64,000 bases of DNA. Source: Thermocrinis ruber. Lineage in GTDB: Bacteria > Aquificota > Aquificia > Aquificales > Aquificaceae. Shown here piece by piece: positions 38,381 through 43,387 of this stretch. A program made the position numbers and the translations under genes. Positions within the stretch are counted from its first letter, which is position 1; every line of letters begins with the position of its first letter. The notes under the pieces were generated by a model. That model worked only from the letters and a program-made list of their open reading frames with translations, searched no databases and had not been told where the DNA came from. Where the stretch lies: NCBI RefSeq assembly GCF_000512735.1, contig NZ_CP007028.1:124001-188000 (forward strand), in the 5' to 3' direction.

Positions 38381-39291
38381 GGGTTCTTATCACCGGTGGT
38401 GCGGGTTTTATTGGCTCCAACCTGGCAAAGGAACTGCAAAACACCTATCCCAAGGCAAAGATTTGGGTTTTGGACAATTTTTCCTCTGGGCACTTTAAAA
38501 ACCTGCTGGGCTTTAAAGGGGAGGTGATCACCGCAGACCTATCGGAGCCATCCCTCTGGGAGTGGCTAAAAAGAAACTTCCACTTTGATGTGGTTTTCCA
38601 TCAGGGTGCAATAACAGACACCACTGTAATGGACCAGTTTAAGATGCTAAGGGTTAATGCAGACAGCATGAGGTTTATACTGGATGCGGTCCTTGCATGG
38701 AATGCAAAGCTCATATATGCCTCCTCCGCCGGCGTCTATGGAAACAGCCCATCACCCATGAAAGAAGGAGAAGGAGAATTTCCAGAAAACCCTTACGGCT
38801 TTTCTAAGTTGATGATGGACCGAATAGCCCTGAACTTCATAGAGGAGAACCCACATATAAAAGTTGTGGGTCTGAGATACTTCAACGTGTATGGACCAGG
38901 GGAAAGCTATAAGGGAAAGACTGCCAGCATGGTCTATCAGCTATACAGACAGATGAAGGAAGGGAAAAGACCGAGGCTTTTCAAGTGGGGAGAGCAGAGG
39001 AGAGATTTTGTTTATGTAAAGGATGTGATAAGGGCAAACCTGCTGGCAATGGAGAGGGATGTTTCTGGTATTTTCAACATAGCTACTGGCGTTGCAAGAA
39101 GCTTTAATGAGATAGTTTCCATTCTAAACCAGCTTTTGGGCACCAACTTAGAACCCGATTACTTTGATTGCCCCTACGACTTTTATCAGAACTACACCCA
39201 GGCGGACATAACCAAGGCAAGGGAGCTTTTGGGCTACGAACCTCAATATAGCTTAGAAGAAGGCATAAAGGATTATCTTAAACATCTGTGA
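38377..39291 (+). CDS. hldD: ADP-L-glycero-D-manno-heptose 6-epimerase
   Basis: Short-chain dehydrogenase-type epimerase for LPS inner-core heptose. The 304 residues have GGAGFIGSNLAKEL (NAD binding), HQGAITDTTVMDQ, the catalytic Y140xxxK144 in NPYGFSKLMMD, RYFNVYGPGESYKGKTAS and QRRDFVYVKDVI. The TDTTVMD and GESYKG elements are specific for HldD over UDP-glucose epimerases. The pathway partners gmhA and rfaE2 are also in this window but not adjacent. It overlaps both neighbours by 4 bp. Confidence 0.88.
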   Translation: MRVLITGGAGFIGSNLAKELQNTYPKAKIWVLDNFSSGHFKNLLGFKGEVITADLSEPSLWEWLKRNFHFDVVFHQGAITDTTVMDQFKMLRVNADSMRFILDAVLAWNAKLIYASSAGVYGNSPSPMKEGEGEFPENPYGFSKLMMDRIALNFIEENPHIKVVGLRYFNVYGPGESYKGKTASMVYQLYRQMKEGKRPRLFKWGEQRRDFVYVKDVIRANLLAMERDVSGIFNIATGVARSFNEIVSILNQLLGTNLEPDYFDCPYDFYQNYTQADITKARELLGYEPQYSLEEGIKDYLKHL

Positions 39292-40268
39292 ACTGGGAAG
39301 AGGTCCTCAACGCCCTTGGAGAGGGGGTTTTGGTTTTAAAAGGTTCAGAGGTAACCTTTGTCAACCGTTTTTTGGTAGAAAACCAGCTTGTTAGAGAAGA
39401 CTGGAAAGGAAAACACTACTACGAGGCAATAAAAAGCCTACCCTTTATATCCATCGTAGGAAGAGCTCTTGGTAAAGACTCTCTTTCTGAGGAATTTCAA
39501 TATCTAGAAAGGTTCTACAGAGTAGTTTCAAAGAGGATAGGCGAGATGCTTGTCTGCGAGGTTTCCGATGTTAGCTCTGTGAGGAAATACGAGCAATCAA
39601 AGAGGGAGTTTGTGGATAACGCCTCCCACGAGCTGAAAACACCCATATCGGTTTTAAGGGGCATAGTGGAAACCCTTTTGGAGGAGGAAGAAGACCAAAG
39701 AAAAAGGCATTTTTTAGAGAAAGCTTTAAGAAGAGTAGAACAGATGCAAAACTTGGTGGAGGACCTGCTAACATTAACCAAGCTTGAATCGGGCAGGGAG
39801 AGGTTAAACCTTTCGGAGTTCAAGCTGAGAGAATTAGTGGAAGAGGTCTACGACAGCCTTGAGCAGGAGTTTGTAAAAAAGGAGGTTAGCTTTGAAAACT
39901 TGGTAAGTGAAGACTTTAAAATGTTTGCAGACAGGCAGAAGCTCTTTTTACTTTTGAGAAATCTTATGGACAACGCGGTAAAGTATAACAAAAGAGGAGG
40001 GAAAGTGTGGGTGCGGGCAAAAAAGGAGGGAAATAAACAGATCCTAGAGGTTGAAGACACGGGCATAGGCATTCCACCGGAGCATGTTCCCTTCATATTT
40101 GAGAGGTTTTACAGGGTAGATAAAGGAAGGTCTAGAGAAATGGGTGGCACAGGCTTGGGACTTTCCATAGTAAAGCACATTGTTTTTTTGCACGGAGGGG
40201 AGATAATGGTTCATTCTGAACCCGGAGAGGGAAGTAGGTTTTCTATCGTGATACCAATGTACAATTAA
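39288..40268 (+). CDS. PhoR-like sensor histidine kinase (no TM)
   Basis: A 326-residue kinase. Residues about 1-95 form a PAS-like sensor domain without any TM helix. The dimerisation domain has the phospho-acceptor H114 in FVDNASHELKTPI; the ATPase domain has LLRNLMDNAVKYN (N box), EDTGIGIPPEHVPFIFERFY (G1/F) and GGTGLGLSIV (G2). The order and SHELKTP...FIFERFYRVD pattern is that of PhoR. No response regulator is adjacent, but phoU with a Pho-box-like promoter lies 3 kb downstream. GTG start overlaps the hldD stop. Confidence 0.85.
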   Translation: MNWEEVLNALGEGVLVLKGSEVTFVNRFLVENQLVREDWKGKHYYEAIKSLPFISIVGRALGKDSLSEEFQYLERFYRVVSKRIGEMLVCEVSDVSSVRKYEQSKREFVDNASHELKTPISVLRGIVETLLEEEEDQRKRHFLEKALRRVEQMQNLVEDLLTLTKLESGRERLNLSEFKLRELVEEVYDSLEQEFVKKEVSFENLVSEDFKMFADRQKLFLLLRNLMDNAVKYNKRGGKVWVRAKKEGNKQILEVEDTGIGIPPEHVPFIFERFYRVDKGRSREMGGTGLGLSIVKHIVFLHGGEIMVHSEPGEGSRFSIVIPMYN

Positions 40269-40295: not shown

Positions 40296-40790
40296 TTGGA
40301 ATTAGACATAGTTCAGTATGATTTGGATGAGGCTACAAAAAATAGGCTTGAAAATGTCATTAAGAATTTTGTGTCTAAAAGCGGTTCTATGCTGGCAGTT
40401 CTCTGCGACGATGCAGGACGGGTACTATCCTACGATTCAAGGGTGCCTTTGGAAGAGTATAAATCGGAGTTCATTACCAGTATAGTCAGCGGTATATTTG
40501 GTGCTTCTTTGGAAATGTCCAAGCTGTTAGAACTGGAAGAACTGGACCTTATTCAGTTTGAAGGTAAGACCCTTAATGTGATCATAAAGCATATAAAACC
40601 AAGGTTCTTGCTTGGCGTTTTGGTTAAGAAAACAACCTCTATAGGAACTGTCCGTTTGTTTCTGAAGGAGGCGAGCGTTGAATTGGAAGAAATCCTAAAG
40701 GAAATGAAGAGTATACCCCAAAAGACAATAAAGATAGATGTAGAAACCTTGGAAGAGAAGTTGCGTGAGATAATAGGAGGCATTGAATGA
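40296..40790 (+). CDS. Roadblock/LC7 (MglB-like) domain protein
   Basis: A 164-residue protein; about 15-120 look like a Roadblock/LC7 domain (KSGSMLAVLCDDAGRVLSYD then strands and a long helix SIVSGIFGASLEMSKLL), the fold that in MglB acts as GTPase-activating partner of MglA. The C-terminal 40 residues are a helical extension. The start is TTG at 40296, chosen because AAGGAGG (40282-40288) sits seven bases upstream. A TAAAAT at 40272-40277 could give the operon its own promoter. The stop overlaps the GTPase start (ATGA). Confidence 0.7.
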   Translation: MELDIVQYDLDEATKNRLENVIKNFVSKSGSMLAVLCDDAGRVLSYDSRVPLEEYKSEFITSIVSGIFGASLEMSKLLELEELDLIQFEGKTLNVIIKHIKPRFLLGVLVKKTTSIGTVRLFLKEASVELEEILKEMKSIPQKTIKIDVETLEEKLREIIGGIE

Positions 40791-41356
40791 AGTTAAAAAT
40801 AGTTTATTTTGGGTCCAGTTTGGCTGGTAAAAGCACTAATATAAAACATCTTTATTCTATTTTGAAAGAAAAGAATATGGTAAAGGGTGACCTAATTACT
40901 GTGGAAACTGAAGAAAACAGGACACTTTTTGTAGAAATGTTCATAAGCAGTATAAACCTGTTTGGTATAGATCTTGAAATAAAGCTTTTAACCACACCAG
41001 GTCAATTTAGACTACATCCTTTAAGAAAAGCCATAATGAAGGGTGTAGATGGGTTGGTGTTCGTGGTAGATAGCAGTGCAGAAAGGGAGCGTATAAACTT
41101 CTTAGTTATGAGGGAAACAGCTGCAGTTTTGAAGGAGATGGGAGAGGACCTTTTAAATTTTCCTGTGGTTGTTCAGTATAACAAGAGGGACCTACCGGAC
41201 GCTATGGATATAGATACTATGGAGATGATGTATAATCCGTGGGGCACTGATTATGTTGAAGCAGTTGCCATAGAAGGAAAGGGAGTGCTGGAAACCTTTA
41301 TAAAAATTGTAAGAAACGTGCTTATAAGTAAAAATGCAAAGGATAGAGTTGTATAA
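40787..41356 (+). CDS. MglA-like small Ras-type GTPase
   Basis: A 189-residue GTPase. The P-loop is GSSLAGKST (9-17), switch II region LLTTPGQF (67-74) carries the PGQ of MglA/Arf-like proteins, and the base-specificity motif is YNKRDLP (132-135 NKRD). MglA family members act as polarity or motility switches together with Roadblock proteins. The preceding gene is such a protein, and the two are translationally coupled; the following gene starts 23 bp inside this one. Bases in this stretch are visibly A+T-rich. Confidence 0.85.
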   Translation: MKLKIVYFGSSLAGKSTNIKHLYSILKEKNMVKGDLITVETEENRTLFVEMFISSINLFGIDLEIKLLTTPGQFRLHPLRKAIMKGVDGLVFVVDSSAERERINFLVMRETAAVLKEMGEDLLNFPVVVQYNKRDLPDAMDIDTMEMMYNPWGTDYVEAVAIEGKGVLETFIKIVRNVLISKNAKDRVV

Positions 41357-42488
41357 AGATTTAAACTTAGAAAGCGTAAATTTGAAAGAAATATTCAGGG
41401 AAATTCAGGATAAATCGGAATCTGGTTATTTAAAGATAACATACTGGGATCAGGAGGATTATATATTCTACGCAGGCGGTAAGCCAATAGGCGGAGCTAC
41501 CTACGACAGACAGGGTAGGAAAATGACACTTGATTATCTGAATTATAGGATAAGAAACTATAACGGTACTCTTTCATTTTATAAACTTCCTACACTGGAA
41601 GTTCTTGTTTTTAAGTATAAAGAGTTAAAATTTCCAACACCTTACAATTTTGTTTCTTACGGTGACGAATTTTTGGCACCAGTAAAAACTACCATGGTAG
41701 ATCCAAACAGGGTTCTACAGCAGGTAAAGAGGTCCCATCTGAATGGTTATATTGTAATTGGCGACGATGAAAATTATAAGTGTATGCTATTCTTGCAAGG
41801 AGGAAACTCCATTGCCTTTTATAATGGTAAGCAGTTTATAAGGAAAGGCAATGTAAGATTTTCTGTAAAACGGGAGACAGATTATGTTGGTGTTTATTCT
41901 ACAGAACCTGAGTTCTCTTTGTTGCTTTCCTGTATGGACACCTTAAAACTTGATGAGGAGTATGATTTTAAAAGCAAGGAAGAGCTGGAAGCTATTGAAA
42001 AAAGTATAACTTCAAGAAAATCTACTTGTCTATTGGATGCCACTTTGAGCAACGGAGACAGGCTTTACCAGTTCTTTTACAGCGGAGCTTTCATTGTAAG
42101 AATACTTCACAGCAGGGAAGAACTGGCTTCAGCAAGCAGAATTGATATAAAACCTGGCACGGAAAATAGGCTCAAGGTTTTTTCTATAGATGTTCCCTTG
42201 GAGATTGGAAGTGTTAATGTTGAGTTTGTATATGAGGATGCAGATAGAAAGGTATATACTTCCTATGTACCAGAGGATAAGGTCACAAAGCTCAAGAAAT
42301 TTTTTATAGAGGAGATTGGTCCGATAGGTAGTTTCCTTTGGAACAGAATACTTAAAAGTAATGGTTTAGACGAAGCAAAGCTTAGCAAGGACGATTTTGA
42401 AAAGTTGGTAAATATACTCAGGGATGAAATACCTGATGAGAGGCATAGAGATAAATTCATTGAAAAAGTAAGGAGGTTAGAAACATGA
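41334..42488 (+). CDS. PATAN/DUF4388-like two-repeat protein, possible GTPase effector
   Basis: No firm family. The 384 residues contain two similar units: SGYLKITYWDQEDYIFYAGG near 31-50 and NGYIVIGDDENYKCMLFLQGG near 137-157, the pattern of DUF4388/PATAN domains seen in bacterial signalling proteins. A beta-rich middle follows. The C-terminal helical part (EEIGPIGSFLWNRIL...LSKDDFEKLVNIL) resembles the small helical domain that ends several PATAN proteins with GTPase partners. Overlaps of 23 bp (upstream) and 4 bp (downstream) tie it to the operon. Confidence 0.6.
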   Translation: MQRIELYKDLNLESVNLKEIFREIQDKSESGYLKITYWDQEDYIFYAGGKPIGGATYDRQGRKMTLDYLNYRIRNYNGTLSFYKLPTLEVLVFKYKELKFPTPYNFVSYGDEFLAPVKTTMVDPNRVLQQVKRSHLNGYIVIGDDENYKCMLFLQGGNSIAFYNGKQFIRKGNVRFSVKRETDYVGVYSTEPEFSLLLSCMDTLKLDEEYDFKSKEELEAIEKSITSRKSTCLLDATLSNGDRLYQFFYSGAFIVRILHSREELASASRIDIKPGTENRLKVFSIDVPLEIGSVNVEFVYEDADRKVYTSYVPEDKVTKLKKFFIEEIGPIGSFLWNRILKSNGLDEAKLSKDDFEKLVNILRDEIPDERHRDKFIEKVRRLET

Positions 42489-43387
42489 AGTTTATACCGC
42501 CAAAAAGTATAAGATGGAAGGTAGGTCTGCCAATGCTTTTTGTAGGCTTGGTATCTGGCTTGGGAGTTGGTTATTACACCTATAAACAGGAGGTGGATAA
42601 CGCCAAGCTCTTAGCCCAAGAGAAAATAAAGATAGCCTTGACTTTTTCAAAGGCCTCAAGGGCTTATGTAAGGGAAGTTCTAAGACCAAAAATAGACCAG
42701 CTTTTAGCTTCTGCCTCTGGATGTATAAAGGAGGACTTTATTTTAGAAGCTCAATCCTCCAGCTTTTTTACTGCATCCATATTCAGGGCGGTAAGTGAGG
42801 AATTGCCAGACTTTAAGCTAAGGCAGGTGGCGTTCAATCCAATAAACCCCAAAAACAACCCGGACGAAACCGAAGCCAAAATAATAGCCTTTTTAAGACA
42901 AAATTTAGCTAAGGAATACTCTGGTGTGATTGAGAAGGGAGGAGATAGATACTTTTTTTACGCTTCCGCAGTAGTGGTAGAGAGCGGATGTCTCAAATGC
43001 CACTATTCCATAGAAGCAATGCCAAAAGCTTTACAGGCTATTTACAAACCAACTCAAGATCCAAAGTGGGAGGTGGGAAAAGTGCAAGGTGCGGTGGTTG
43101 TTTCTATGCCCTTTGAGAAGGTTATTCTGAGAGCTCAGTTGGAAGGTTTAAAAAATGGACTTCTAGTGTTTGGAGTGTTCTTTGGTATAACCCTCTTGCT
43201 GTTGATAGTCCTTGATAGATTGGTGTTTAGACCTTTGGAACTTCTTGAAAGGAAGGCAGAGGAAATAGCTAAGGGTAATGTGGATGAACCAATTGAAATA
43301 AAAGGAGAAGACGAGATTGGCAGGCTGGCACAAGCCTTTGAAAGGATGCGTGTAAGCATAAAGAAGGTTATGGACCTGCTAAAGTAA
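42485..43387 (+). CDS. Membrane c-haem (DUF3365-like) sensor with HAMP, no output domain
   Basis: A 300-residue membrane protein. TM1 (about 13-31) and TM2 (about 224-245) flank a periplasmic domain with a single covalent-haem motif CLKCH (169-173), in the context of the DUF3365/Tll0287-like PAS domain (RQVAFNPINPKNNPDETEAK). A cytoplasmic HAMP helix pair (LERKAEEIAKGNVDEPIEIK, then DEIGRLAQAFERM) ends the protein at 300, with no kinase, cyclase or chemotaxis domain. It is the last gene of the Roadblock-GTPase-PATAN operon, overlapping by 4 bp. A redox, NO or CO sensor is plausible. Confidence 0.8.
   Translation: MKFIPPKSIRWKVGLPMLFVGLVSGLGVGYYTYKQEVDNAKLLAQEKIKIALTFSKASRAYVREVLRPKIDQLLASASGCIKEDFILEAQSSSFFTASIFRAVSEELPDFKLRQVAFNPINPKNNPDETEAKIIAFLRQNLAKEYSGVIEKGGDRYFFYASAVVVESGCLKCHYSIEAMPKALQAIYKPTQDPKWEVGKVQGAVVVSMPFEKVILRAQLEGLKNGLLVFGVFFGITLLLLIVLDRLVFRPLELLERKAEEIAKGNVDEPIEIKGEDEIGRLAQAFERMRVSIKKVMDLLK

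Follow-up and report, generated by a model that had tools for sequence, protein, structure and literature searches.

A putative split transmembrane receptor, a HAMP-terminated c-haem sensor with a STAC-domain adaptor, encoded beside an MglA/MglB-like pair in Thermocrinis ruber

In a 64,000-nucleotide stretch of the genome of Thermocrinis ruber, a thermophilic member of the Aquificota (contig NZ_CP007028.1, positions 124,001 to 188,000; hereafter the window), four overlapping genes on the + strand at 40296-43387 encode a Roadblock/LC7 protein (P1), a small Ras-like GTPase (P2), an adaptor (P3) and a membrane-bound c-haem receptor (P4) that ends in a HAMP domain. We propose, with a probability of roughly 0.6, that P4 and the STAC domain at the C-terminus of P3 make up a split transmembrane receptor feeding the Ras-like switch formed by P2 and P1. 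The domain families, the STAC identity and the genomic pairing of HAMP-terminated receptors with STAC genes are well supported; what we infer is that STAC docks on HAMP, which way the signal runs, how the haem reacts and what the cell does in response. An earlier note, made from the sequence alone, had also read the operon as a module with a single input, in which the third protein connects the c-haem receptor with the Roadblock/GTPase pair, which agrees with the conserved gene order and the all-or-none co-occurrence described below.

Results

The adaptor and its STAC domain

P3 (384 residues; 41334..42488, +) has no family match in Pfam. In an AlphaFold2 model built from four sequences (pLDDT 83.7) it appears as three alpha/beta repeats followed by a four-helix C-terminus, and hhalign likewise relates the repeats to one another (R1-R2 95%, R1-R3 71%), one more than the two that the earlier note had counted. 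The DUF4388/PATAN-like label that the note gave to P3 is not borne out, as PF14332 matches neither P3 nor its orthologues, save 1 of 18 at 0.0069, and the hhalign probability against a profile of DUF4388 proteins is 6%. A likeness of the whole model to sliding clamps, from Foldseek against the PDB, was dropped with a TM-score of only ~0.1.

The C-terminal four-helix bundle (residues ~314-383; 42273..42482, +), with EIGPIG between helices 1 and 2, is on profile and predicted fold a STAC domain, as in Af1502 of Archaeoglobus. A profile of this domain, built on 29 sequences that span several families of Aquificota, matches the Af1502 structure 5a1q at 2.3e-4, with the runner-up at 0.17. Modelled separately (pLDDT 84.7), the domain again has four helices, and both chains of 5a1q lead its Foldseek matches in the PDB with a probability of 1.00 (TM-score 0.61/0.69, root mean square deviation 2.4 A); every other match has a probability <=0.15. 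The earlier note had rightly seen an IGPIG-type helix bundle here, while missing both its STAC identity and the likeness of the receptor to Af1503. Since the bundle is a STAC domain and P4 is Af1503-like, it is best read as the part of P3 that would dock on the receptor. This is the single STAC gene of the T. ruber genome, and a scan of the whole genome collection for P3 with one stringent peptide pattern returned three loci, all in Aquificota.

The receptor and its archaeal counterpart

P4 (300 residues; 42485..43387, +) consists of a transmembrane segment, a periplasmic sCache_heme (Tll0287-like) domain, a second transmembrane segment, HAMP and a seven-residue tail. Pfam recognizes Tll0287-like (PF11845, 1.5e-30) and HAMP (2.2e-14) and no further domain, leaving HAMP as the sole cytosolic part. 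A profile of P4 sensor domains matches the Tll0287 structure 5b82 at 1.2e-7, and the haem attachment motif CXXCH is present as CLKCH (42989..43003, +). The closest solved HAMP to that of P4 and its relatives is Af1503 (3.2e-13). The P4 tail ERMRVSIKKVMDLLK is matched by ERLRRSLKVAMESLEE of Af1503, and this RMRVSIKKVMDLLK tail is conserved and amphipathic; HAMP together with this tail (43217..43384, +) is the proposed docking site for STAC.

The parallel with Archaeoglobus fulgidus extends to the genes. HAMP is also the sole cytosolic part of Af1503, which has no effector, and translation of its gene is coupled with that of the Af1502 gene (PMC4834066). In both systems a receptor ending in HAMP (tail ERLRRSLKVAM in Af1503) is coupled to a four-helix STAC partner, the P3 and P4 genes overlapping by 4 base pairs (bp). 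Af1502, however, is a STAC domain alone, of 68 residues, and its operon includes a putative transporter of metal ions (PMC4834066), whereas the STAC domain here is fused to a three-repeat adaptor, lies alongside an MglA/MglB-like pair and accompanies a sensor with a c-haem motif.

Pairing of HAMP-terminated receptors with STAC genes

HAMP-terminated receptors are paired with STAC genes well beyond this operon, and sensors and effectors are interchanged between the pairs. Across eight genomes, 9/11 HAMP-terminated proteins have a STAC gene within ~1.5 kb, as against 0/17 other HAMP proteins examined; an R[ML]RxS-type tail is found in all 11, and one internal HAMP fits a loosened version of the pattern. 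Among Aquificota, STAC genes adjoin HAMP-terminated receptor genes while the sensor varies (c-haem, dCache_3 or none), as do the N-terminus of the STAC adaptor (three-repeat, DUF4388 or Roadblock-like) and the GTPase at the locus (group-1-like or of the TTVAMDF/GTPGQ type). One genus of Aquificaceae (g3) has an extra P3 paralogue adjoining a dCache_3-HAMP receptor that shares the tail. In family f2, a bare transmembrane-HAMP protein is followed by a STAC protein whose N-terminus is Roadblock-like and then by Roadblock, DUF4388 and GTPGQ-type GTPase genes; the top three PDB matches of that N-terminus are MglB, at weak E-values of 0.07-0.12, and hhalign relates it to P1 at 57%. Genuine DUF4388 proteins occupy the P3-type slot in family f5.

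Outside Aquificota, six Pseudomonadota plasmids encode a haem receptor of DUF3365-HAMP type directly followed, at gaps of -8 to +42 bp, by a Ser/Thr kinase with two C-terminal STAC-like domains (whole-protein hmmsearch E-values of 1e-10 to 3e-3 at Z = 1000, in a small plasmid set). A seventh plasmid match (Rippkaea) has no STAC neighbour on its plasmid.

Several loci are noted here as observations. One (L099, G009:C1:42000-54000) has a tandem pair of transmembrane-HAMP proteins followed by a 231-residue STAC protein. In 5/6 of the plasmids with receptor-kinase pairs (L106, L108, L110-L113), type VI secretion genes (tagF, tssM, tssB/C, tssH) are adjacent. The T. ruber genome has two further, paralogous small-GTPase loci, L002 (C1:1007600) and L003 (C1:1139915), both with true DUF4388 proteins and L003 with a Roadblock protein as well; a STAC gene was not seen at L002 or L003.

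The MglB/MglA-like pair

P2 (189 residues; 40787..41356, +) is well supported by sequence as an MglA homologue with group-1 features, and P1 (164 residues, TTG start; 40296..40790, +) as an MglB-like Roadblock protein. The identities given to both in the earlier note are borne out by Pfam and by profile matches to MglB and MglA. P1 matches Robl_LC7 (PF03259) at 5.7e-5, with 23.2 bits barely above the cut-off of 23; the first match of its family profile, from 15 homologues, is MglB 6h5b_B at 8.4e-18. P2 matches Arf/Ras in Pfam, and its match to Thermus thermophilus MglA (3t12_A) at 1.6e-36 leaves eukaryotic Arf far behind (3e-6). Its motifs are GSSLAGKST, ENRTLF, TTPGQ and NKRD. TEENRTLF aligns onto TEDERTLF of T. 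thermophilus MglA, placing an Arg at the G2 position, the intrinsic arginine finger of MglA. As MglA groups 2-5 have Thr in the G2 region and GTPGQ (PMC4316618), the Arg and TTPGQ in place of GTPGQ lead us to class P2 as probable group 1. All of the motifs listed in the earlier note (GSSLAGKST, TTPGQF, NKRD, CLKCH, IGPIG as part of EIGPIG, and HAMP) are in fact present.

Conservation of the operon

The four open reading frames overlap consecutively by 4, 23 and 4 bp, in agreement with the earlier description. The P1-P2-P3-P4 order recurs in seven further genera of Aquificaceae (g2, g3, g4, g7, g8, g10, g11), so it is not confined to this genome, and most orthologous operons retain the 23-bp overlap between the GTPase and P3 genes (window 41334-41356). 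The flanks differ between genomes, being phoR/phoU here and glyA/mog-like, flhA/proS or glnE/pyrG elsewhere. A recurring order, usually with the same overlap, between unrelated flanks makes the arrangement more than chance. In 42 near-complete Aquificaceae genomes, scored with hand-set ortholog cut-offs, P1, P2 and P3 are all present in 25 and all absent in 17 with 0 exceptions, and a haem or dCache receptor is found in 25/25 genomes having P1-P3. The conserved order and the all-or-none co-occurrence together support the reading of P1-P4 as a functional unit.

The alternative is that the haem receptor has a function apart from that of the Roadblock/GTPase/P3 set, the two being inherited side by side and sharing only transcription. 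One genome (G002) with P4 and without P1-P3 would fit such a reading, as would another (G057) in which the operon genes are scattered over three places, although all are retained there. We consider it very improbable given that the overlaps are conserved across rearranged genomes, that P1-P3 occur all or none and always in company with a receptor, and that HAMP-STAC pairs occur in Aquificota, on Pseudomonadota plasmids and in an archaeon (PMC4834066).

The haem signal

Cys80 of P4 (42722..42724, +) lies 93 residues N-terminal to the haem His and is a candidate axial haem ligand. The spacing of 93 is constant in the window P4 and 13 Aquificaceae orthologues (48-67% identical). L081 lacks the equivalent Cys, as do the receptors of f2 and f5, which are more distant, and two fully translated plasmid receptors have no Cys besides CXXCH at the Cys80 position. 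An attempt to align Cys80 to the axial Cys found in Tll0287 was abandoned, as the profile match stops short of the Cys80 region.

A described receptor of this kind is a HAMP-linked sCache_heme (DUF3365/Tll0287-like) protein of P. azotoformans, WP_033902098, with the same c-haem Cache domain, two transmembrane segments and HAMP. It is reported in a preprint to be a nitric oxide (NO) sensor without axial Cys, the redox-type protein having one, and no downstream partner of the HAMP-only form is named in the description found (PMC12889525). By analogy, P4 might detect NO and the GTPase module mount the response. The shared layout speaks for this, whereas the third Cys at fixed spacing in P4 is a difference from the NO-binding protein, and P4 does not co-occur with nirS, the gene for cytochrome cd1 nitrite reductase (near-complete Aquificaceae, Fisher p = 1). 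NO sensing is therefore rather doubtful here, and a link to denitrification was dropped because nirS is unassociated. Taken with the contrast drawn in that source, the extra Cys at a fixed distance makes the P4 signal lean to redox; the phrase "redox or gas" in the earlier note stays apt. We predict from the sequence a Cys/His-ligated haem that is nevertheless linked to signalling, which would break the simple division made in PMC12889525.

Discussion

The preferred split-receptor model would operate as follows. The haem Cache domain of P4 lies in the periplasm, and the receptor, stopping at HAMP and an amphipathic tail, has no output domain of its own. P3 would supply the missing cytosolic half, its STAC domain docking on the HAMP and tail of P4 and its three-repeat N-terminal part engaging the MglA-like GTPase P2, perhaps as effector, exchange factor or scaffold, while the MglB-like P1 would control the GTPase cycle. 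The HAMP of P4 may be altered when the haem changes state, through redox most likely in view of the conserved extra Cys, and through NO as the second choice; this would change the binding or posture of STAC so that the GTPase is recruited or switched at the membrane. The cellular output may be type IV pili, as with other MglA proteins. A flagellar output was dropped, as flhA is unassociated and Hydrogenobacter-type genomes retain the operon without flhA.

P3-STAC might instead tether the GTPase to the membrane at the receptor, with the haem domain setting the place or time of the complex and not the GTPase cycle. Myxococcus MglA/MglB do act largely via polar localisation (PMC4316618, PMC11580455). 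A PilT-family ATPase is encoded in 64/64 Aquificaceae genomes, as a localisation role would have it, but being universal it cannot tell the two readings apart. No part is exchanged as readily as the sensor, a sign of varied inputs more than of a mere anchor, and we regard localisation alone as unlikely.

Several points weigh against the split-receptor model. In published work STAC is tied to solute transport and kinases, and docking on HAMP is not shown, even for Af1502 (PMC4834066); the P3-P4 and P3-P2 contacts we infer from gene context and domain identity. P3 has IGPIGS where the STAC consensus is LGPx(x)A, an inexact match; among the 29 aligned Aquificota sequences GP is invariant (29/29) and the Ala is replaced in most. 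Single STAC copies in the plasmid kinases have weak E-values (best 7e-5, several ~1). In family f5 a DUF4388-STAC protein adjoins a c-haem HAMP receptor with no neighbouring GTPase, and G002, as noted above, has P4 alone. The co-occurrence counts depend on the cut-offs chosen and on genomes of one family that are not independent. Two HAMP-terminated proteins of 145 residues (L142, L143) have the tail motif and no STAC neighbour. Their genomes have one STAC gene each, located elsewhere, and sharing in trans is possible.

More broadly, HAMP-STAC may be a general trans-acting socket through which receptors with interchangeable sensors plug into unrelated STAC-bearing effectors, a reading to which we give even odds. 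Aquificota would use Ras-like GTPase modules as effectors, Pseudomonadota Ser/Thr kinases and archaea free-standing STAC, and a covalent-haem redox sensor would stand directly upstream of an MglA switch in Aquificaceae. Af1503, on which HAMP was worked out, ends at HAMP without a recognizable output, and the fusion of STAC to recognizable effectors beside HAMP-terminated receptors provides a testable proposal for how receptors without effectors signal. If true, bacterial Ras-like GTPases would gain a dedicated transmembrane haem-based input, and the HAMP-only haem receptors lately described as NO sensors would gain candidate partners. In the literature searched, no paper was found that mentions both a STAC domain and a GTPase.

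Known GTPase systems resemble the operon in part. P2 and P1 are homologous by sequence to MglA/MglB of T. thermophilus and Myxococcus xanthus, the G2 Arg and the Gln of PGQ being kept. The Myxococcus pair, however, takes its inputs from RomR and Frz, and the published descriptions found mention neither a transmembrane receptor dedicated to it nor a STAC adaptor. The actinobacterial conservons (Cvn; MglA group 2), to which the earlier note had likened the operon, also combine Roadblock, GTPase and membrane receptor in four genes. That comparison fails on detail, as P4 has no histidine kinase, P3 has no CvnC match and bears a STAC domain instead, and the GTPase has features of group 1 and not group 2. 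The MglA/MglB genes described in the vicinity of PATAN proteins (Makarova 2006; Wuichet and Sogaard-Andersen 2014, PMC4316618) share the placing of a GTPase and/or Roadblock gene beside a multi-domain adaptor; P3 differs in failing DUF4388 and bearing STAC, and the HAMP receptor lies outside that description.

The operon also differs from its surroundings in base composition. The earlier note had singled out two 60-base lines within P3 (41341-41460), and their 17 and 20 G+C are confirmed, but 12 and 58 of 1,066 window lines, respectively, are as low or lower. It is the G+C content at third codon positions of the whole operon that stands out, at 0.35-0.43 compared with 0.47-0.55 in eight neighbouring genes. 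This is consistent with transfer and falls short of proof. Six congeners are without the P1-P3 set. The congener G051 is without P3 and P4 and has P1 and P2 only as distant paralogues; its gene order is too scrambled for an empty insertion site to be recognized.

Upstream, at window 39288-40268, lies a gene for a PhoR/PnpS-like kinase of 326 residues in which no transmembrane segment is evident, so that it looks like a soluble PhoR. The four genes sit between it and phoU, parting the two. As only 27 bp separate the kinase gene from the operon, P1-P4 may be co-transcribed with the upstream genes.

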